Source of the DNA: Acidimicrobiia bacterium
GTDB lineage: Bacteria; Actinomycetota; Acidimicrobiia; Spongiisociales; UBA11373
NCBI GenBank assembly: GCA_016932695.1
Contig: JAFGCH010000063.1
Coordinates: 1 to 37,060 of the forward strand
Direction of reading: 5' to 3'
DNA: 37,060 nt
Each line of letters starts with the position of its first letter. The first letter of the stretch is position 1. The notes under the pieces are model-generated. The model was not told the DNA's origin and searched no databases. It saw only the letters and a list, made by a program, of their open reading frames with translations. Both the position numbers and the translations under genes were made by a program. Of this stretch, positions 4,091-18,653 are shown piece after piece.

Positions 4091-5086
<996 letters not shown>

Positions 5087-6280
5087 TCACTCGCTCGGCC
5101 GGCTGCCGACGATGCTGACGAAGCTGACGCATTCCCCGGGATAGCCGCCCAGGTTGTGGGTGAGGCCCAGGGTCTTGTCGGTGTGGATCTGGCGTTCCGG
5201 CGGGGCCTCGCCGCGCAACTGCAACCAGCACTCGAAGATCATGCGCAGGCCGGAGGCGCCCACCGGGTGGCCGAAGCTCTTGAGCCCGCCGTCGGGGTTG
5301 ACCGGCAGGTCACCGTGGAGGTCGAAGGTGCCGTTGAGTACTTCCTGCCAGGCGGTGCCGCGGGGAGCAAAGCCCAGGTCTTCCATGAGGATGAGCTCGG
5401 TGGGGGTGAAGCAGTCGTGCACCTCGGCCATGGCCAGTTCGGCGCGAGGGTCGGTGACCCCGGCCTGGGTGTAGGCATCCTGCCCGGAGAGCACCACTTC
5501 GGGGAAGGTGGTGTAGTCGTAGCCGGGGTCGTTGGCCCCGCCGCCGGCCCCGGCAACGAACGCCAGGGCCTTCACGAAGAGAGGCTTGTCGGTGTAGCGG
5601 GGCGCATCTTCGGCCCGCACGATGATGGCGGCAGCCGCCCCGTCGGACACCCCGGAGCAGTCGAAGATGCCCAGGGGCCCGGCCACCAGGGGTGAGTTGC
5701 AGATGACCTCCGGGGCCACCTCCTTGCGGAACTGGGCCCGGGGGTTCAGCGAACCGTTGTGGTGGTTCTTCCAGGCGATGCGGGTGAACACCTCCTTGAG
5801 CTTCTCCTCGGTCACCCCGTACTTCCTGGCGTACGCCGGAGCGAGCAGGCTGAAGAGCGCCGGGGCGGTGAGGTCGGCGGTGGTGCCGTCGTTGGGCGGC
5901 AGGGGCAGCACCAGCCCGGAGTAGCCGGAGTCCTTCAGCTTCTCCACGCCGATGGCCATGGCGATGTCGTAGGCACCCGCCGCCACGGCGTAGCAGGCGT
6001 TGCGGAACGCTTCGGAGGCGGTGGCGCACAGGTTCTCCAGCCGGGAGACCGGCTTGGTGCCCAGCTTGAGAGGCTTGGCCAGCGTCATGCCGCTCATCCC
6101 CGAGGCCATGGTGCCCAGCCAGTAGGCATCTATGTCGTCCTTGGCCACTCCGGCGGAGGCCAGGACCTCGCCGGCGGCTTCCACCAGCAGATCGTCGGTG
6201 CTCTTGTCCCAGTGCTCATCGAACCGGGTGCAGCTCATCCCGACGATGGCCACCCGGTCGCGAATGCCCTTCGAGGCCAT
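5087..6280 (-). CDS. SCP2-type thiolase / acetyl-CoA acetyltransferase-like protein
   Basis: The 397-residue protein has two thiolase folds. Cys85 in ENLCATASEA is at the nucleophile position. HDCF in EVHDCFTPTEL is the hallmark of the SCP2/SCPx and archaeal thiolase subgroup. The histidine in KSFGHPVGASG is the usual active-site His, whereas the C-terminal Cys-x-Gly motif of classical thiolases is replaced by HNLGGYPG, as is normal for this subgroup. It should make or cleave beta-ketoacyl-CoA thioesters, or act as a partner-dependent aldolase like Ltp2. The ATG lies 1 nt after the stop of the DUF35 fusion gene, with AAGGAG 7 nt upstream, so the two are translationally coupled and probably form a complex. 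No lipid-transfer SCP2 domain is attached. Confidence 0.88.
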   Translation of the reverse strand: MASKGIRDRVAIVGMSCTRFDEHWDKSTDDLLVEAAGEVLASAGVAKDDIDAYWLGTMASGMSGMTLAKPLKLGTKPVSRLENLCATASEAFRNACYAVAAGAYDIAMAIGVEKLKDSGYSGLVLPLPPNDGTTADLTAPALFSLLAPAYARKYGVTEEKLKEVFTRIAWKNHHNGSLNPRAQFRKEVAPEVICNSPLVAGPLGIFDCSGVSDGAAAAIIVRAEDAPRYTDKPLFVKALAFVAGAGGGANDPGYDYTTFPEVVLSGQDAYTQAGVTDPRAELAMAEVHDCFTPTELILMEDLGFAPRGTAWQEVLNGTFDLHGDLPVNPDGGLKSFGHPVGASGLRMIFECWLQLRGEAPPERQIHTDKTLGLTHNLGGYPGECVSFVSIVGSRPSE

Positions 6281-6281
6281 G

Positions 6282-7715
6282 TCACACTCCTTGCGGCTCG
6301 GGAACGGCGGCGTCGCCGATGAGCCGTGCCTTCCAGAAGTAGTTCTGCACCCCGCCCGCGGCGAAGAGCCGGCGGAAGGTCATCTCCACCCGGCGGCCGA
6401 TGCCCACCGCGGCCGGGTCCACGTCGGTGAGCTCACAGCGGTAGCGGCCGCCCCCGTCGAAGTCCACCACCGCCGCCACTACCGGCGGGCTGGGGGAGTA
6501 GGCGAGACGGTCGATGGTGAAAGTGGCGATGGTGCCGGGGACATCGGCCAAACGCTCCGGAGTCATGTGGTCCACGGCCCCGCACCCGGCGCACACTCGC
6601 TGCGGCGGCAGGTGGCGCGTGCCGCAGTCGCGGCACCGTGAGCCGGTGAAGCCGAACTTCCACTCTTCGGAGCGCAGCGCCGGGGGGGCTGCCGGCGGCA
6701 CCGGGTCGGGGCGCCGGGGGCCTTGGCGAGGGAGCATGCCCCTCCAGGTGAGGAAGTCGGCGTAGGCCACCCGGCGCCCGGCGGCGGCTTGCTCGGCCAC
6801 CGTCGGGGAGGAGCGGTGCTCCGCCAGGGCCTCCGTGGCCCGTAGCACCAGGACGTCCGCCCCGTCGGCCAGCACCACCAGGGCGACGACCGCCCCAGGG
6901 CGGGCGGCATCCAGGGCCGACGCCAGCAGCAGTCCGGGATGGGCGGCCCCGGTGTTGCCCACGGTGGCGGCCAGGTCGTCCACCAGCACCTCGGCCTTGG
7001 CCCGGCTCATGCGGAGGAAGGCGCCGGCGGCCCGGGCGTGAGTGCCGGTGACGATCAGATGCTGCACATCGTCGGGAGCCACTCCCGCCTGCGCCAGGGC
7101 GGCGGCGACCGCCCGGCCCACATGCGGCAGGAAGGCGTGCACCCCGAAGCGCTCCTCCCAGCGCCGGGAGAACGACTCGCCCGGCACCCGCCATCGCTCC
7201 AGGAACTCCCCCGTGGCCGAGGCGACGGCGAGGCACTCCGCCAGCACCGGATGCGCCGCCTCCCCCGGCCCTACCAGGAAGGCGGCGGCGCCGTCGCCCC
7301 CCTCCCGTTCGTCCTCGCTGCCGGGGAGGCCGCTGCGGATGTCGGCCGCCACCACCAGGTTGCGTCGGGTAGAGGCCAGGGCGGCGGCCAGCAGGCCCAC
7401 CCCTGAGCGAACCGCGCCCCCCATGTCGTAGGCCCCCACCCCGGGGGGCAGTCCCAGGGCGGCATGAACGGCGGTGGCGTTGGTCTTGTCCAGATAAGCC
7501 GGGGCGGTGGTGGCGAACTGGAGCGCGGCCAGGTCGCCGGGGAGGCGGGGGAGAAGACGGCGCGAGGCGGCCACCGCCATGGAGGTGGAGTCCTCGTCGT
7601 AGGAGGCCACCGTGCGGGTGCCCTTGGCGGGCGGCCCGCCCAGGGCCTCCCCGATCGATTTCCGCTCCAGGCGGTAGTGGGGGAGATAGGTGGCATACCC
7701 CAGGATCCCGCTCAT
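6282..7715 (-). CDS. HMG-CoA synthase-like domain fused to DUF35 zinc ribbon/OB-fold; catalytic triad lost
   Basis: Residues 1 to about 330 follow the HMG-CoA synthase/KAS III fold: ILGYATYLPHYRL, then YDEDSTSMAVAA, and YLDKTNATAVHAALG. Residues about 350-477 form a DUF35 module with a zinc ribbon (Cys361, Cys364, Cys375, Cys378) followed by an OB-fold (GTIATFTIDRLAYSP, then RRVEMTFRRL). Compared by eye with archaeal HMG-CoA synthase, the nucleophile Cys is Val102 (DMGGAVRSG), the general-base Glu is Thr70, and the expected His is not in place near IVTGTHARA. In methanogens separate thiolase, DUF35 and HMG-CoA synthase proteins form one complex; here two parts are fused and the thiolase follows directly. 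The protein is probably a scaffold or an altered-chemistry enzyme. The ATG has GAAGGGG 5 nt upstream. Confidence 0.82.
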   Translation of the reverse strand: MSGILGYATYLPHYRLERKSIGEALGGPPAKGTRTVASYDEDSTSMAVAASRRLLPRLPGDLAALQFATTAPAYLDKTNATAVHAALGLPPGVGAYDMGGAVRSGVGLLAAALASTRRNLVVAADIRSGLPGSEDEREGGDGAAAFLVGPGEAAHPVLAECLAVASATGEFLERWRVPGESFSRRWEERFGVHAFLPHVGRAVAAALAQAGVAPDDVQHLIVTGTHARAAGAFLRMSRAKAEVLVDDLAATVGNTGAAHPGLLLASALDAARPGAVVALVVLADGADVLVLRATEALAEHRSSPTVAEQAAAGRRVAYADFLTWRGMLPRQGPRRPDPVPPAAPPALRSEEWKFGFTGSRCRDCGTRHLPPQRVCAGCGAVDHMTPERLADVPGTIATFTIDRLAYSPSPPVVAAVVDFDGGGRYRCELTDVDPAAVGIGRRVEMTFRRLFAAGGVQNYFWKARLIGDAAVPEPQGV

Positions 7716-7825: not shown

Positions 7826-8680
7826 ATGCCCGTCGATCCGACTCAGGCCGTCGGGGCCTTGGTGGGCGACTTCACCTCGTCTTGGGATGAGGACCGGGTG
7901 ATCTTGTACCACCTGGCGGTGGGGGCGGGGCGTGATCCCGTCGCTCCCGGCGAGCTGGAGTACTGCTACGAGTCCCGCCTCAAGGTGCTGCCGTCGTTCG
8001 GGGTGATCCCGGCCCAAGGGGTGCTGGGCGGCATCTTCGGGGTGCCCGGGCTGTCCTTCAACCCGATGCTGCTCCTGCACGGGGAGCAGGAGATAGAGGT
8101 GCTCACCGCTCGCCTGCCCACGGCCGCCACGGTGCGCAGCCGGGGAAGGGTGGCGGCGATCTACGACAAGGGCAAGGCTGCCCTGGCGGTGCTGGAGGTG
8201 GATACCTCGAGCGCCTCGGGGGAGGTGATGTTCCGCAACCGTTTCTCCCTGTTCCTGCGGGGCGAGGGGGGCTTCGGAGGCGACCCCGGGCCCAAGACGG
8301 TGGAGACGGCCCCCGACGGCCCGGCCGACCTGGTGGTCGAATCCCCCACCCTGGCCCAGCAGGCCCTCCTCTACCGGCTGCTGGGCGACAAGAACCCGTT
8401 GCACGCCGATCCCGACTTCGCCGCCGGGGCCGGATTCGAGCGGCCCATCCTCCACGGCCTGTGCTCCTACGGCATCGTCTGCAAGGCGGTGGTGGACGGC
8501 ATGCTGGGAGGCGACACGGCGGCGGTAGCCGGGTACCGAGCCCGCTTCGCCGGAGTGGTCGTCCCGGGGGACACCATCGTCACCACAATGTGGCGCCGGG
8601 GGGATCGGGTCTACTTGACGGCCGCCGACAAGGAGCGCGGCACCCCGGTGCTGGCCAACGCCGTAGTCACCCTGCGTTGA
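7826..8680 (+). CDS. Double-hotdog MaoC-type enoyl-CoA hydratase (hydratase 2)
   Basis: The 284-residue protein has two hotdog folds like eukaryotic hydratase 2 and Mycobacterium MaoC-type hydratases. The C-terminal half carries the hydratase 2 motif at about residues 186-218: YRLLGDKNPLHADP with the catalytic Asp and His, followed by ERPILHGLCSYG. The N-terminal half (FGVIPAQGVL, then NPMLLLHGEQEIEV) is the substrate-binding non-catalytic fold. Such enzymes add water to trans-2-enoyl-CoA to give (R)-3-hydroxyacyl-CoA in fatty-acid or sterol side-chain degradation. It diverges from the DUF35/thiolase operon, and a hydratase followed by thiolase or aldolase cleavage would be a natural pair. 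The start is fixed by GAGGAGGGG immediately upstream of the ATG. Confidence 0.9.
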   Translation: MPVDPTQAVGALVGDFTSSWDEDRVILYHLAVGAGRDPVAPGELEYCYESRLKVLPSFGVIPAQGVLGGIFGVPGLSFNPMLLLHGEQEIEVLTARLPTAATVRSRGRVAAIYDKGKAALAVLEVDTSSASGEVMFRNRFSLFLRGEGGFGGDPGPKTVETAPDGPADLVVESPTLAQQALLYRLLGDKNPLHADPDFAAGAGFERPILHGLCSYGIVCKAVVDGMLGGDTAAVAGYRARFAGVVVPGDTIVTTMWRRGDRVYLTAADKERGTPVLANAVVTLR

Positions 8681-8767: not shown

Positions 8768-9361
8768 TCAGTCGCCCAGCAAGGCGGCTTGCACCATGGC
8801 GATGAGGATCTCGGCTTCGCGCTCGGGGTTCATCCCGCTGTCGTAGTAGGCGACGCAGAGGCACATCCACAGCCCGGCGTGGACCATGAGGCGGACGGCC
8901 CGGTCGTCCAGGTCGGGGCGCAGGCGGCTCAGGGCCTCGACCCAGGCGGCTACGTGCCGCCGCTCTGCCCGATCCACCCAGCGCCGGGTGTCGGGGGCCA
9001 GGGCGTGCCGCTCCCGCATGATCACCGCCGAGATCCAGCGATCGGCGATCAAGCCCTCGATGAAGTTCCGGATGAGGCCGTCGAGGACCTCGCGCGGGAT
9101 GCCCGGGCCGGTGAGGATGGCCTGGTTCCGCTCCAGCCACCCGCCCAGGGCCTGGCGTATTCCGGTCGCCAGGATCTGCTCCTTGCTCTCGAAGTGGCGG
9201 TAGATGCCGGGCCCGGTGATGCCGGCGGCGGCGCCGATCTCGTCCATGCCGGTGGCGTGGTAGCCCTTGCGGTGGAAGAGGTCCATGGCCGCGGCCAGGA
9301 TGCGGGCACGGCGGTCGGGGCGCCGCTTGGCCCCCTCGGGAAGGCGGGAGGCGCCGCTCAT
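8768..9361 (-). CDS. TetR family transcriptional regulator
   Basis: The 197-residue protein has an N-terminal TetR helix-turn-helix at about residues 15-60: RRARILAAAMDLFHRKGYHATGMDEIGAAAGITGPGIYRHFESKEQIL. The remainder is a helical ligand-binding domain with VAAWVEALSRLRPDL and an MVQAALLGD end. Its ATG (9361-9359) overlaps the TGA stop (9360-9358) of the PrpE-like gene in an ATGA arrangement, so it is made by coupled translation with the synthetase. TetR proteins in this setting usually sense an acyl-CoA and repress their own operon. Candidate sites are the inverted repeat at 11306-11323 and the palindrome at 7769-7783. Confidence 0.9.
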   Translation of the reverse strand: MSGASRLPEGAKRRPDRRARILAAAMDLFHRKGYHATGMDEIGAAAGITGPGIYRHFESKEQILATGIRQALGGWLERNQAILTGPGIPREVLDGLIRNFIEGLIADRWISAVIMRERHALAPDTRRWVDRAERRHVAAWVEALSRLRPDLDDRAVRLMVHAGLWMCLCVAYYDSGMNPEREAEILIAMVQAALLGD

Positions 9362-11274
9362 GGCCGGGCTTGCGGCGCCGGGTCCTCGGGGAAGCCGAGG
9401 GCCGCCAGGGCCCGGCCGACCTCGTCGAGGCTGGTGGGGTCGTCGATGGTGGCGGGGGTGTTCCATTGTTCGCCGTCGGCGATTTGGCGCATGGTGCCGC
9501 GGAGGATCTTGCCGGAGCGGGTTTTGGGGAGGCGGGTGACGACGCTGGCTTGTTTGAAGGCGGCGACGGGCCCGATGCGATCGCGGACCATGGCGACGAG
9601 TTCGGCGACGATGTCGGTTTCGGGGCGGTCGACGCCTTGTTTGAGGACGACGAAGCCGACGGGGACTTGGCCTTTGAGACGGTCGGCGACGCCGATGACG
9701 GCGCATTCGGCGACGGCGGGGTGGGAGGCGAGGACTTCTTCCATGGCGCCGGTGGAGAGGCGGTGGCCGGCGACGTTGATGATGTCGTCGATGCGGCTCA
9801 TGATCCACAGGTAGCCGTCGGGGTCCCGGTAGCCGGCGTCGCCGGTGAGGTAGTAGCCGGGGTAGCGCTCCAGGTAGGAGGAGATGAAGCCCCCGTCGTT
9901 CTGCCACAGGGTGGGGAGGTTGCCGGGAGGTAGGGGGAGGCGGATGGTGATGGTGCCGATCTGGTCGGCGGGCAGGGGCTGGCCTTCGGGGTTGAGGATC
10001 TGCACGTCGTAGCCGGGGGCGGGGACGCCGGCGGAGCCGGGCTTGACCGGCAGCGCTTCGATGCCCAGGCAGTTGGCGGCGATGGCCCAGCCGGTCTCGG
10101 TCTGCCACCAGTGGTCGATGACCGGCACCCTGAGCTTGTCCTGCGCCCATCCGAGGGTGTCGGGGTCGCAGCGTTCCCCGGCCAGGAACAGGGTACGGAA
10201 ACGGCTCAGGTCGTAGCCGCCGACGAGTCTCCCTTCGGGGTCTTGCTGTTTGATGGCTCGCAGAGCGGTGGGGGCGGTGAACATCACGCTCACCCCGTGG
10301 TCGGCCACTACCCGCCAGAAGGCCCCGGCGTCGGGGGTGCCCACCGGTTTGCCCTCGTACAGCACGGTGGTGCAGCCGTGGAGGAGGGGGGCGTAGACGA
10401 TGTAGGAGTGCCCCACCACCCAGCCCACATCCGACGCCGCCCAGTACACCTCCCCGGGCCGCACGTCGTAGATGTGCTCCATGCTCCACCGGAGGGCGAC
10501 GGCGTGCCCGCCGTTGTCCCGCACCACCCCCTTGGGCACCCCGGTAGTGCCCGAGGTGTAGAGGATGTACAGCGGGTCGGTGGCCGCCACCGGCACACAT
10601 GGCGCCGGCTCGGCATCGGCCATCACCGTCTCCCAGTCCAGATCCCGGCCCGGGACCAAAGCCGCCTCCGCCTGGGGCCGCTGCCGGATCACACACCGCT
10701 CCGGCCGATGCGAAGCGATCTCCAGCGCCCGGTCCAACAGCGGCTTGTAAGCCACCACCCGGGAGGCCTCCAGACCGCAGGAAGCCGACAGGATCACCCG
10801 CGGCTTGGCATCATCCACCCGGGTGGCCAGCTCCTTGGCGGCAAACCCGCCGAACACCACCGAATGCACCGCCCCGATACGGGCACAGGCCAGCATCGAG
10901 ATCACCGCCTCGGGGATCATCGGCATGTAGATGATCACCCGATCCCCCCGCTCCACCCCCAAAGACCGCAAGCCCCCCGCCACCCGGGCCACCTCGTCCC
11001 GCAGCTCCCGGAACGTGTACCGGCGCACCACCCCCGTCACCGGGCTGTCGTACACCAACGCCACCTGATCCCCCCGCCCCGCATCCACATGACGATCCAC
11101 CGCGTTATGACACGTGTTCAACACCCCACCCGCAAACCAGCGGAAAAACGGCGGGTTAGAACCATCCAACGCCCGCGAAAACGGCTCCTCCCAACCGATG
11201 CCCGCCGCCGCCTCCCCCCAAAACCCCTCCGGATCGGCCAACGAACGAGCATGAGCCTCGGCATAAGCGCCCAC
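9358..11274 (-). CDS. PrpE-like propionyl/acetyl-CoA synthetase (AMP-forming)
   Basis: This is an ANL-superfamily ligase of 638 residues. The P-loop-like motif is YILYTSGTTGVPKG, the A5 core is WWQTETGW, and the A7/A8 region holds YLTGDAGYRD and IDDIINVAGHRLS. The acylatable lysine is about Lys589 in KTRSGKILRG. EGKPVGTPDAGAFWRVV and WSMEHIYDV favour the PrpE/ACSS3 branch over acetyl-CoA synthetase. It activates a short acid to acyl-adenylate and then acyl-CoA. I choose GTG 11274 because GGGAGGGG lies 6 nt upstream; an upstream TTG at 11298 would leave that site inside the gene. Codon use changes sharply along the gene: the 5' part prefers T/G-ending codons (TTG, TTT, GAT, GCG), the 3' part C-ending codons plus GAA, CAA and AAA. 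Confidence 0.9.
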   Translation of the reverse strand: MGAYAEAHARSLADPEGFWGEAAAGIGWEEPFSRALDGSNPPFFRWFAGGVLNTCHNAVDRHVDAGRGDQVALVYDSPVTGVVRRYTFRELRDEVARVAGGLRSLGVERGDRVIIYMPMIPEAVISMLACARIGAVHSVVFGGFAAKELATRVDDAKPRVILSASCGLEASRVVAYKPLLDRALEIASHRPERCVIRQRPQAEAALVPGRDLDWETVMADAEPAPCVPVAATDPLYILYTSGTTGVPKGVVRDNGGHAVALRWSMEHIYDVRPGEVYWAASDVGWVVGHSYIVYAPLLHGCTTVLYEGKPVGTPDAGAFWRVVADHGVSVMFTAPTALRAIKQQDPEGRLVGGYDLSRFRTLFLAGERCDPDTLGWAQDKLRVPVIDHWWQTETGWAIAANCLGIEALPVKPGSAGVPAPGYDVQILNPEGQPLPADQIGTITIRLPLPPGNLPTLWQNDGGFISSYLERYPGYYLTGDAGYRDPDGYLWIMSRIDDIINVAGHRLSTGAMEEVLASHPAVAECAVIGVADRLKGQVPVGFVVLKQGVDRPETDIVAELVAMVRDRIGPVAAFKQASVVTRLPKTRSGKILRGTMRQIADGEQWNTPATIDDPTSLDEVGRALAALGFPEDPAPQARP

Positions 11275-11298
11275 GACTAACCCCTCCCGATGATGCAA

Positions 11299-12346: not shown

Positions 12347-12505
12347 CGGCTCGCCGGCGCTGCCTCTTGGCCTGCTGGGTCAGCGCCCTAGGTTGTCGAC
12401 GCCCCGGCGTCTTGACGGTCCTCCGGGGATGGGCAGCTTCAGTGAACCACGGGGCAGGTAAACGTGGCATAAACACCGTGGGGAGGTGCGGAGGCAGGGC
12501 ATTGC

Positions 12506-12511
12506 TAGCGT
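12506..12511 (+). promoter_or_regulatory. -10 box TAGCGT of a leaderless-type promoter
   Basis: TAGCGT is followed by a 7-nt spacer and ATG 12519, the start that gives a clean signal peptide. No ribosome site lies at a usable distance. Confidence 0.45.
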
Positions 12512-12518
12512 GGCGGTC

Positions 12519-13970
12519 ATGACGCTATCCACCCGATACCGGGCCGCGTTCCTGGCGATCGCCGTCCTGGTCCTGCTGCTCACCGCGGCCGTCGGAGCCG
12601 AGGAGCCCCAGGACGATGCCGTGCCGGGCGAGTCCCTCGACCCGCGTATCGTCGGCGGCGTCGAGGTCCAGCCGCCCGGCAAGTACCCGTTCATCGTGGC
12701 TCTGGTCTTCGCCTCCGAGCCGGATACCTACTGGGGGCAGTACTGCGCCGGCACCCTCATCGACCCGTGGTGGGTGCTCACCGCCGGCCACTGCGTCTCG
12801 TTCCCGGCGGCCAACCAGCCCTGGGAAGTGGATGTGGTCGCCGGGCGCCACGACCTGCGCTACGGCACCGACGGGGAGCGGATCGGGATCACCGACATCT
12901 TCCTCCATCCGGGGTACGACGACAGCACCCTGGCCAACGACCTCGCCCTGCTCCGCCTGGAGAGAGCGGCCGTCGCGGCCACCCCCCTGGCGCTGGCCAC
13001 CGGCGCCGACGGGGATCTGTTCGCGCCCGGGGCTCTTGCCACGGTGATCGGTTGGGGGGCCACCCTGGGCAACCCACCGGGCACGCCCAACTACCCCGAC
13101 ACCCTGCGCGAGGTGCAGGTACCCATCGTCGCCGACGCCGACTGCACCGCGGCGTACGGGAGTGAGTTCATCCCGCCCGGCCAGATCTGCGCCGGGGATC
13201 TGCTCAACGGGGGAATCGACTCCTGCTACGGGGACAGCGGCGGGCCGCTGTTCGTGGCCGATGGGACCGACTACCTGCACGTGGGCATCGTGTCCACCGG
13301 CAAGGACTGCGCCCTGGCGGGCTTCCCGGGCATCTACACCCGCACCGCCACCTACGCCGAGTGGGCACAGGAGACCGTGACCGCCAATCCGGTACCGCTC
13401 TGCCGGGGGAGGACGGCCACTTTGGTGGGCACCATCAAGGATGACGTGCTCCGCGGCACCGTCGGGGACGATGTGATCGTCGGGCGGGCCGGCAGCGATG
13501 CCATCTACGGCGACGGCGGGGCCGACGTCATCTGCGCCGGGGCGGGCCGCGACATGGTGGAGGCCGGGGCCGGGGCCGACGTAGTCATCGGCGGGTCGGG
13601 CGGCGACCGGCTCTTCGGCGGCTTGGGCCACGACTTCCTGGCGGGCGGGTCGGGCCGGGACCGTCTGTACGGGGGCGAGGGCAACGATCGGCTCTTCGGC
13701 GGCGCCGACACCGACGTGGCTCTCGGCGAGGCGGGCGACGACCTGATCTACGGGGGCGACGGCCCCGACCGCCTCTACGGTGGGGAAGGCCGGGATGCTC
13801 TCTCCGGGTTCGGCGGCGACGACCGGATCCTCGGCGGCCCCGGCGACGACGAACTCACGGGCGGCGAAGGATTCGACTTCCTGCGCGGTGGCGGCGGTGT
13901 CGACCGCTGCTTCGGCGGCGAAGACGTCGTATGCGAGGCGGCCCACTCGACCTTCCATCTGCCGCAATGA
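12519..13970 (+). CDS. Secreted trypsin-like serine protease with C-terminal RTX calcium-binding repeats
   Basis: The 483-residue precursor begins with a signal peptide (basic RYR, then the hydrophobic core AAFLAIAVLVLLLTAAVGA). A short propeptide ends at the activation site R-IVGG. The S1 (chymotrypsin-fold) domain follows to about residue 290 with triad His91 (TAGHCV), Asp141 (NDLALL) and Ser240 (GDSGGPL). Asp234, six before the serine, fits a trypsin-like pocket for Arg/Lys. Residues about 310-470 are GGxGxDxx nonapeptide repeats that should bind calcium and fold as a beta-roll, closed by a Cys-rich end (DRCFGGEDVVCEA). ATG 12519 is chosen over GTG 12486 because the latter sits inside its own GGGGAGG. 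The protease probably acts outside the cell and may need calcium for stability. Confidence 0.88.
   Translation: MTLSTRYRAAFLAIAVLVLLLTAAVGAEEPQDDAVPGESLDPRIVGGVEVQPPGKYPFIVALVFASEPDTYWGQYCAGTLIDPWWVLTAGHCVSFPAANQPWEVDVVAGRHDLRYGTDGERIGITDIFLHPGYDDSTLANDLALLRLERAAVAATPLALATGADGDLFAPGALATVIGWGATLGNPPGTPNYPDTLREVQVPIVADADCTAAYGSEFIPPGQICAGDLLNGGIDSCYGDSGGPLFVADGTDYLHVGIVSTGKDCALAGFPGIYTRTATYAEWAQETVTANPVPLCRGRTATLVGTIKDDVLRGTVGDDVIVGRAGSDAIYGDGGADVICAGAGRDMVEAGAGADVVIGGSGGDRLFGGLGHDFLAGGSGRDRLYGGEGNDRLFGGADTDVALGEAGDDLIYGGDGPDRLYGGEGRDALSGFGGDDRILGGPGDDELTGGEGFDFLRGGGGVDRCFGGEDVVCEAAHSTFHLPQ
13446..13935 (+). repeat. Tandem RTX (GGxGxDxx) nonapeptide-coding repeats
   Basis: About 17 successive nine-residue units encode patterns such as GGEGNDRLF, GGDGPDRLY and GGPGDDELT. 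At DNA level they are 27-base units with strong GGC/GAC bias but poor identity. They form the calcium-binding part of the protease and are not a DNA-level mobile repeat. Confidence 0.85.
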
Positions 13971-15823: not shown

Positions 15824-15920
15824 GGCCGACCTCCGCGTCGCACGATAGTCGCCGCCGCTCCTGCATGCGGGGTGCTCCGGGATCCTGGCAGAATGCTGTC
15901 GGCCGAGATCAGGAGTGACG

Positions 15921-18653
15921 GTGGCCGCCTATCCGAGTGACTACGACTTCCATGTGGTGCTGCGCGACGGGGGCCTGGCCCACATCCGTCCCATCAAGCC
16001 CGAGGATGCCGAGGGCTTGCACAACATGTTCCATCGCCTGGGGCGGGACAGCGTGTACCACCGCTTCTTTCGCCACAAGCAGGACCTCTCCGAGGAGGAA
16101 CTGGGCTACTTCACCGACCTCGATTACGACGACCGCATGGCCTTCGTGGTGGAGCTGGGGACCAAGATGGTCGCCGTTGGCCGCTACGACCGCATGGAAG
16201 ACGATGCTGCGGTCGCCGAGGTGGCTTTCGTGGTCGAGGACGGCCATCAGGGGCGGGGCATCGGCACCCAACTCCTCACCCACCTGACCAACTACGCCCG
16301 CAACAACGGGGTAACCGCGTTTCGGGCTTTCGTCCTCCCCGACAACTACCCCATGATGCGGGTGTTCCGCAGCTCCGGTTTCCAGCTCCGCCGGGAGATG
16401 GGCCAGGGCATCTACACCGTCGAGTTCCCCGTCGAGCTCACCGAAGAGGCCAAGCGGGCTGCCTGGCAGCACGAGCAGCACGCCGTGGCCGCTTCTCTTC
16501 TCCCGATGTTCTACCCGCGGAGCGTGGCCATCGTCGGGGCCAGTCGGGAAGAGCGCTCCATCGGGGCCCGGGTGATGCGCAACACCCTGCGCGCCCGGTT
16601 CTCCGGAGTGGTCTTCCCGGTCAACCCCAACGCCCCGGCGGTGGGATCGGTCAAGGCCTACAAGTCGGTGCTCGACATCCCCGATTCGGTGGACATGGCG
16701 GTGCTGGTGGTGCCGGCCCGTTTCGTGCTGTCGGTGGTGCAGGAGTGCGCCGACAAGGGGGTCAAGGCCCTGGTGGTGATCAGCGCCGGGTTCTCCGAGA
16801 CGGGTGACGCGGGTACCCAGCTGGAGACCGAGCTGCTCGAGTTGGTGCGGTCTGCCGGCATGCGCATGGTGGGCCCCAACTGCATGGGCATGCTCAACAC
16901 CGACCCGGCGGTGAACCTCGACGTGACTTTCTCCCCGACCTATCCGCCGCGGGGCAACGTCGCCATGTCCAGCCAGAGCGGGGCTCTGGGCATCGCCATC
17001 CTGGACTACGCCCGGCAGCTGGACATCGGCATCTCCTCGTTCGTGTCGATGGGCAACAAGGCCGACGTCTCGGCCAACGACCTGCTGCTCTACTGGGAGG
17101 GAGACCCCTCTACCGACGTGATCCTCTTGTACCTGGAATCCTTCGGGCACCCGCGCCGCTTCGCCCGCATCTCGCGCCGGGTGAACCGCAAGAAGCCCAT
17201 CGTGGTGGTGAAGTCGGGGCGCAGCCAGGCCGGGGCCCGGGCCGCCAGCAGCCACACCGGGTCCATGGCCAGCGGTGAGGTGGCGGTCTCCGCCCTGTTC
17301 CGCCAGACCGGGATGATCCGCACCGATACCCTGGAGGAGCTCTTCGAGGTGGCCACTCTCCTCGCCAACCAGCCCCTGCCCGGCGGCCGGCGAGTGGGCG
17401 TGCTCACCAACGCCGGCGGGCCGGGGATCCTGGCGGCCGACGCCCTTTCGGCCGACGGGCTCGACCTGCCGCTCTTCTCTCCGGCCTTGCAGGAGAAGCT
17501 GCGGGTGGGTCTGGCCGCCGAGGCCGCGGCGGGCAACCCGGTGGACATGATCGCCTCGGCCGGCCCCGATCAGTACCAGGCCTGCTTGCGGGAATTGCTC
17601 GCCAGCGACGAGATCGACTCGGTGATGGTGATCTACATCCCCACCGCCCCGCGAGCGAGCCGCGACGTTGAGCAGGCAGTGGCCGATGTGGTCGCCGAGG
17701 GCACCAACGGCAAGACGGTGTTGTCGGTGTTCATGCAGGCCGACGACGGCGACCTGGGGCCGATCAACCGGGGGGAGATTCGCATCCCCAGCTACGCCTT
17801 CCCCGAGCCGGCGGCCCGGGCGCTGGCACGGGCGGTGCGTTACGCCGAATGGCGGGCCCGTCCCGAGGGGGTCATTGCCGAGTTCGACGACACCGATACC
17901 GACGTGGCCCAGGACGTGATCTGGGGGGCGCTGGGGCGTCTCGGCCTGGAGGGCGGGTGGCTGCTGCCCCACGAAGCCGACGCCGTGCTCGACGCCTACG
18001 GTATCCCGCATCCCAAGTCCCGGCTGGTCCACTCCCGGGAGGAGGCGGTGCAAGCGGCGGCGGAGTTCGGTGGGCCGGTGGCCCTCAAGGTGGTAGCGCC
18101 CAGCGCCCTGCACAAGAGCGATGTCGGCGGCCTCGCCCTGAACCTCACGGGCGACGAAGAGGTGGCGGCGGGCTACGACCGGGTGGCCGCGGTGGCCGAG
18201 GACGTCCAGGGCGTGTTCGTGCAGGAGTTCGTCAAGGGCGGCCACGAGGTCATCGTGGGCATGGCCGAGGACCCCTCCTTCGGGCCGCTGATCGCCTTCG
18301 GCCTCGGTGGGGTGTTCGTAGAGCTCATCAAGGACATCTCCTTCCGCATGAACCCCATCACCGACATCGACGTCGACGAGATGATCTCCGAGGTCAAGGC
18401 GGCCAAGATGCTGGAGGGCTATCGGGGAGGTCCCGCCGGCGACATCCCGGCACTCAAGGATCTCATGCAGCGCCTTTCGGCGCTGGTGGAGGAAGTGCCG
18501 GAGATCGTCGAACTGGACCTGAACCCGGTGAAGGTGCTGGAGCCCGGTCGCGGGGCGGTGGTAGTGGACACCCGCGTGCGGGTTAGGTCGGTGCCGCAGC
18601 GCTGGCTGCCGAGCCGCAAGGACATCCCCGCGGCCGAGCGGCGGTTGCGCTGA
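15921..18653 (+). CDS. Pat-type protein acetyltransferase: GNAT domain fused to ADP-forming acyl-CoA synthetase-like domains
   Basis: The 910-residue protein has, in order: a GNAT domain (about 15-175; acetyl-CoA loop HQGRGIGTQLL), a CoA-binding Rossmann domain (about 195-290; VAIVGASREERSIGARVMRN), succinyl-CoA-ligase-like domains (about 300-620; MSSQSGALG) and an ATP-grasp domain (about 690-900; LKVVAPSALHKSDVGGLAL, ending ELDLNPVKV). GNAT-first order is the actinobacterial PatA layout; enteric Pat has GNAT last. The His at about residue 445 in ASSHTGSM aligns with the phospho-His of ADP-forming synthetases, so synthetase activity is possible. Pat proteins acetylate a catalytic Lys in AMP-forming acyl-CoA synthetases. 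GTG 15921 is chosen because AGGAG (15911-15915) lies 5 nt upstream; GTG 15915 overlaps that site. Confidence 0.87.
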   Translation: MAAYPSDYDFHVVLRDGGLAHIRPIKPEDAEGLHNMFHRLGRDSVYHRFFRHKQDLSEEELGYFTDLDYDDRMAFVVELGTKMVAVGRYDRMEDDAAVAEVAFVVEDGHQGRGIGTQLLTHLTNYARNNGVTAFRAFVLPDNYPMMRVFRSSGFQLRREMGQGIYTVEFPVELTEEAKRAAWQHEQHAVAASLLPMFYPRSVAIVGASREERSIGARVMRNTLRARFSGVVFPVNPNAPAVGSVKAYKSVLDIPDSVDMAVLVVPARFVLSVVQECADKGVKALVVISAGFSETGDAGTQLETELLELVRSAGMRMVGPNCMGMLNTDPAVNLDVTFSPTYPPRGNVAMSSQSGALGIAILDYARQLDIGISSFVSMGNKADVSANDLLLYWEGDPSTDVILLYLESFGHPRRFARISRRVNRKKPIVVVKSGRSQAGARAASSHTGSMASGEVAVSALFRQTGMIRTDTLEELFEVATLLANQPLPGGRRVGVLTNAGGPGILAADALSADGLDLPLFSPALQEKLRVGLAAEAAAGNPVDMIASAGPDQYQACLRELLASDEIDSVMVIYIPTAPRASRDVEQAVADVVAEGTNGKTVLSVFMQADDGDLGPINRGEIRIPSYAFPEPAARALARAVRYAEWRARPEGVIAEFDDTDTDVAQDVIWGALGRLGLEGGWLLPHEADAVLDAYGIPHPKSRLVHSREEAVQAAAEFGGPVALKVVAPSALHKSDVGGLALNLTGDEEVAAGYDRVAAVAEDVQGVFVQEFVKGGHEVIVGMAEDPSFGPLIAFGLGGVFVELIKDISFRMNPITDIDVDEMISEVKAAKMLEGYRGGPAGDIPALKDLMQRLSALVEEVPEIVELDLNPVKVLEPGRGAVVVDTRVRVRSVPQRWLPSRKDIPAAERRLR

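Follow-up and report, generated by a model that had tools for sequence, protein, structure and literature searches.

The protein encoded by the fused gene of the window (the whole 37,060-nt stretch of DNA that was analysed), which joins a domain resembling HMG-CoA synthase (HMGCS) to a DUF35 domain, probably acts, without catalytic activity of its own, as the scaffold of an active SCP2-type thiolase that is encoded directly behind it, and would serve acyl-CoA catabolism, not the mevalonate pathway. This reading, to which we give a probability of roughly 0.73, draws together sequence, structural models and analogy with known complexes. The HMGCS-like domain, which has lost its catalytic triad, would act as a structural subunit shaping a putative shared CoA and substrate cavity, and the attached DUF35 domain would bridge it to the thiolase in a predicted physical complex. 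The chemistry would then be performed by the thiolase, as thiolytic cleavage or Claisen condensation of a beta-ketoacyl-CoA, the most likely role being the breakdown of an unusual acyl-CoA. The pair may accordingly be described as PhlACB-like parts in which the equivalents of PhlA and PhlB occupy one chain.

The fused gene and its junction with the thiolase

The extent that an earlier note had given for the fused gene is exact, and the gene sits on the minus strand (Table 1). The HMGCS-like and DUF35 parts form a single open frame, and not separate chains, both in the window gene and in its homologues, as the same note had proposed for the window. The DUF35 part scores above both of its Pfam cut-offs (OB_ChsH2_C, 46.6 vs 27.1 bits; zf-ChsH2, 29 vs 23.2), and the four zinc-ribbon cysteines previously listed are all present in the alignment. 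Read directly, the junction between the two genes is AAGGAG-TGTGAC-ATG, in which the stop codon TGA is followed by 1 nt and the ATG of the thiolase. The 1-nt distance described earlier is thereby borne out, and this spacing suggests translational coupling.

Table 1. Features of the fused gene, the adjoining thiolase gene and their neighbours in the window.
Feature	Position	Strand	Basis
Fused HMGCS-like and DUF35 (zinc ribbon, OB fold) protein, 477 aa	6282..7715	minus	ATG start
HMGCS-like domain, residues 1-327, triad replaced	6735..7715	minus	Alignment with 6ESQ_I and 111 homologues; fold match
Codon of Thr70	7506-7508	minus	
Codon of Val102	7410-7412	minus	
Codon of Thr223	7047-7049	minus	
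Codon of displaced His226	7038-7040	minus	
DUF35 domain, residues 351-465: zinc ribbon (Cys361, 364, 375, 378) and OB fold	6321..6665	minus	Pfam; Cys columns
AAGGAG, Shine-Dalgarno-like, within the 3' end of the fused gene, 6 nt ahead of the thiolase ATG	6287..6292	minus	Sequence
SCP2-type thiolase, 397 aa, active-site motifs intact	5087..6280	minus	Homology, alignment, model
Codon of thiolase Cys85	6026-6028	minus	
Codon of thiolase His288 (HDCF)	5417-5419	minus	
Codon of thiolase Cys290 (HDCF)	5411-5413	minus	
Codon of thiolase His338 (GHP)	5267-5269	minus	
Nitronate monooxygenase / FabK-like flavoprotein, next same-strand gene	4091..5071	minus	Pfam; syntenic in sister genome; putative member of the system
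MFE-2 type (R)-enoyl-CoA hydratase (MaoC), divergent neighbour	7826..8680	plus	Pfam; syntenic in sister genome; putative member of the system
Acyl-CoA synthetase, acetate/propionate-CoA ligase type	9358..11298	minus	Homology; syntenic in sister genome; putative member of the system

An HMG-CoA synthase fold without its catalytic triad

Residues 3-327 of the fused protein match chain I of 6ESQ at E = 9.9e-18, and at 6e-37 when the family profile is used. The AlphaFold2 model of the fusion (pLDDT 89.9, pTM 0.91) likewise finds 6ESQ_I as its top PDB match (TM-score 0.86 by target length, rmsd 2.3 A), followed by the PhlA and MucA chains, consistent with the previous view that the fold has been kept despite the loss of the triad. 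In the alignment with 6ESQ_I, Glu82, Cys114 and His238 of the Methanothermococcus enzyme fall on Thr70, Val102 and Thr223 of the window protein, and His226 stands three residues beyond the lost catalytic-His position, so that the absent triad and displaced His that had been read by eye are found here as well. His238 is a residue that we take to be catalytic in HMGCS; Cys114 and Glu82 are functional residues of the methanogen enzyme (PMC6392133).

The same alignment, which spans archaeal HMGCS and the fused homologues, holds no conserved Cys, Glu or His at the catalytic positions. Among 111 homologues the Cys position is filled by V (64), L (17), A (9), P (8) or I (7) and never by Cys (0/111), the Glu position by T, A, S, P or V and never by Glu (0/111), and the catalytic-His position never by His (0/111). 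The positive control, a stand-alone HMGCS of the same phylum (L212), displays its Glu, Cys and His intact in the same kind of alignment, and the method is therefore able to detect an intact triad. As the catalytic residue is missing at each of the three positions in all 111 homologues, the loss of the triad is a family trait, as had been supposed, and not a local mutation. Between two members of the genus, dN/dS is 0.29 for the HMGCS-like domain, 0.15 for DUF35 and 0.10 for the thiolase; judged from these ratios, the HMGCS-like domain is under purifying selection, although it is less constrained than the thiolase. The dN/dS of 0.24 and the occurrence of the loss in all 111 homologues rule out a pseudogene or a local mutation.

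The best NCBIfam matches of the N-terminal part are the archaeal HMGCS models, which might suggest a functional HMG-CoA synthase that works via other residues and feeds isoprenoid or ketogenic metabolism. This is highly improbable: the window protein scores far under the cut-offs of these models (125.7 vs 244 for NF003274; 88.1 vs 353 for TIGR00748), all three catalytic residues are missing, and NF003274 finds no match above its cut-off in any of the 396 genomes of the phylum. HMG-CoA reductase (PF00368) has no match in this 95.5% complete genome, which argues against a mevalonate pathway. A true HMG-CoA synthase was rejected in view of the residues, the model cut-offs and the absent reductase.

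An intact thiolase as obligate partner

The adjoining thiolase retains its catalytic residues across the family. Among family rows with a residue at the position in question, methanogens left out, Cys85 is kept in 99/99, the HDCF motif in 98/98 and the GHP His in 98/99. Its PDB matches are led by 6ESQ_A (E 1e-55), followed by SCP2 thiolases (1e-39) and PhlC (4e-24), and its model (pLDDT 86.6) also fits 6ESQ_A best. Mean column identity across the family is 78% for the thiolase vs 57% for the fusion.

The pairing of the two genes is just as consistent. Within 396 genomes of the phylum, every thiolase found at E <= 1e-110 (52/52) has the fused gene directly upstream, and the two genes adjoin in all 30 loci of a first set. 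The thiolase lies within 200 nt of the fused gene in 69 of 80 named loci, themselves a subset of at least 548 confirmed relatives, and somewhere in the locus in 78 of them. The association of the family with one particular thiolase across bacteria indicates that the fused protein is probably a non-catalytic scaffold. Some loci depart from the simple two-gene arrangement: one genome (G389, contigs C49 and C20) has three copies of the fusion-thiolase pair, another (G237:C1) has two closely spaced copies, and at L076:10001-12493 the fused frame overruns the thiolase start by about 1.07 kb in another frame, reflecting either a missing stop or an assembly error.

The earlier note had left the choice between a dead scaffold and new chemistry undecided. 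That the partner thiolase is both intact and obligate favours the scaffold, and nothing was found in this analysis that supports new chemistry. There is, nevertheless, a counterpoint, in that several positions of the HMGCS-like domain, Arg127, Trp186 and Glu187 among them, are invariant in the family and differ from the methanogen enzyme; such residues could mark a new site instead of an interface. A new active site built from Arg127, Asp141, Trp186-Glu187, His226 and Arg228, acting on the product or substrate of the thiolase, is unlikely. Of these residues, all except His226 are invariant across 62 aligned homologues, Trp186 and Glu187 align with Gly in the methanogen enzyme, and 89/111 members have a His three positions from the lost one; however, His226 is by the same count absent from a fifth of the members, the old pocket is without a conserved nucleophile, with V, L, A, P or I at the Cys position, and the HMGCS-like domain evolves faster than the thiolase. 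Asp141, which FabH-type proteins also commonly have, may moreover be structural. A milder version, in which a re-purposed site made of family-specific residues (Arg127, Trp186-Glu187 and Arg228) gates or chemically assists the thiolase throughout a widespread two-gene class, some members of which are without DUF35 zinc, may be entertained as a rather doubtful alternative to the scaffold.

Distribution of the family and loss of the zinc site

Scanning named genomes yielded at least 548 confirmed relatives. The 80 retained among them belong to Actinomycetota, with Streptomyces, Mycobacterium, Frankia, Nocardia and Acidimicrobiia, to Rokubacteria, to Chloroflexota and to other groups. At E <= 1e-20, matches turn up in 57 of 396 genomes of the phylum, and almost all cover the full length. 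A full-length match is found in only one of 119 relatives from the order of the window; this sister genome carries it at 80% identity, and the entire neighbourhood of the fused gene is syntenic there. Three contigs labelled as a Bifidobacterium breve MAG (L094, L106, L124) carry genes that nest among Acidimicrobiia/Ilumatobacteraceae, and the label looks wrong. The same phylum also has unfused sets of HMGCS-like, thiolase and DUF35 genes (L210:118-2701 and L211:1841-4395), in which the HMGCS-like protein is likewise without the triad.

The zinc-ribbon cysteines are all-or-none in the family: 65 of the 111 homologues have all four and 46 have none. In the zinc-less members (L032, L033, L036, L039 and 42 others), which are mostly from Acidimicrobiia, the cysteines are typically replaced by Asp, Ser, Ser and Gly, and the thiolase remains intact alongside. 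Two changes suffice to explain the pattern on a quick tree whose deep forks are weakly supported.

Comparison with characterized complexes

In the methanogen complex, DUF35 joins thiolase and HMGCS around a common CoA site (PMC12329534, PMC6392133). The structure of this complex, 6ESQ, contains the same three components and is the best solved-structure match for the HMGCS-like part and the thiolase alike, such that the top PDB matches of both are chains of one complex; chains of PhlACB and MucABC also rank high. The window locus encodes all three components of complexes of the 6ESQ and PhlACB type together. In 6ESQ, however, these are three separate chains and the HMGCS is active (Cys114, Glu82), whereas in the window the HMGCS-like part and DUF35 are fused and the triad is gone.

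The PhlACB complex (Pseudomonas protegens, 5M3K; Chromobacterium sphagni, 9SKH) shares an inactive HMGCS-like subunit with the window family. PhlA is without the Cys and Glu, the DUF35 subunit PhlB forms the bridge, acyl transfer uses residues of PhlC only, and activity requires co-expression of all three subunits (PMC6392133). PhlA and PhlB are nonetheless separate, and the complex is biosynthetic and performs CoA-independent acyl transfer, whereas the window thiolase is closer to SCP2-type thiolases. The MucABC complex of Streptococcus macacae (9VBO, 9VBT) similarly has a triad-less HMGCS/KAS III-like subunit beside a thiolase-fold subunit, but this HMGCS-like subunit is a separate chain and its counterpart in the window is fused to DUF35. 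In the alignment, MucA has Cys at the Glu position, Glu at the Cys position and Gln at the His position. MucABC is biosynthetic. The resemblance of BbsAB (7PXP), Ltp2-ChsH2 (6OK1) and Sal-Shy (9MYR) to the window pair is of another kind, as these are catabolic thiolase-fold enzymes with a DUF35 partner; they are without an HMGCS-like domain, and the DUF35 of Shy is fused to a MaoC-type domain, as is that of ChsH2.

As PhlA and MucA, the nearest inactive HMGCS-like subunits of known function, both belong to biosynthetic complexes, the window pair might by analogy be a C-acyltransferase of the PhlACB kind, engaged in making or modifying a secondary metabolite and not in degrading acyl-CoAs. This is improbable given that the thiolase resembles 6ESQ_A and the SCP2 thiolases more closely than PhlC and keeps HDCF, that the neighbours are of a catabolic acyl-CoA type, and that neither the surroundings of the window gene nor the scanned neighbour families showed a polyketide or phenolic pathway.

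Metabolic context

In addition to the genes that surround the pair in the window (Table 1), acyl-CoA dehydrogenases, class III CoA-transferases, AMP ligases and a short-chain dehydrogenase occur beside members elsewhere in the family. These neighbouring acyl-CoA genes, in the window and in the family, suggest acyl-CoA catabolism. No conserved neighbour that would indicate the substrate was found across the family, and the nitronate monooxygenase, MaoC and ligase genes are not conserved in the 80 named loci. Further along the window, a gene for a trypsin-like protease with RTX calcium-binding repeats (12486-13967, plus strand) is syntenic in the sister genome, and another (15915-18650, plus strand) fuses a GNAT acetyltransferase domain to an ADP-forming acyl-CoA synthetase with ATP-grasp.

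Significance

The earlier note had considered that a dead synthase kept as a scaffold would be a new variant. In this form the claim is not supported, as a dead HMGCS-like subunit together with DUF35 and a thiolase is already known from PhlACB (PhlA; PMC6392133) and from MucABC (MucA, by the alignment), and fusions of DUF35 to members of the thiolase superfamily were mentioned in 2010 (PMC2954200). The apparent novelty lies in a fused form that is widespread and obligately paired with a thiolase, and whose zinc site is either complete or lost altogether. A literature search that covered little subscription content found no description of the large fused family or of the all-or-none zinc loss, and no characterised member of the family.

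The family scores best against HMG-CoA synthase models and is, consequently, easily misread as evidence for a mevalonate pathway in bacteria that do not have one. Regarded instead as probable non-catalytic partners, these proteins would define a class of obligate two-gene thiolases without a known substrate. They also complete a natural series, in which the HMGCS-like subunit runs from active and separate, through dead but still separate and dead but fused, to dead, fused and zinc-less, and which may serve to probe the role of the HMGCS-like subunit and of the zinc.
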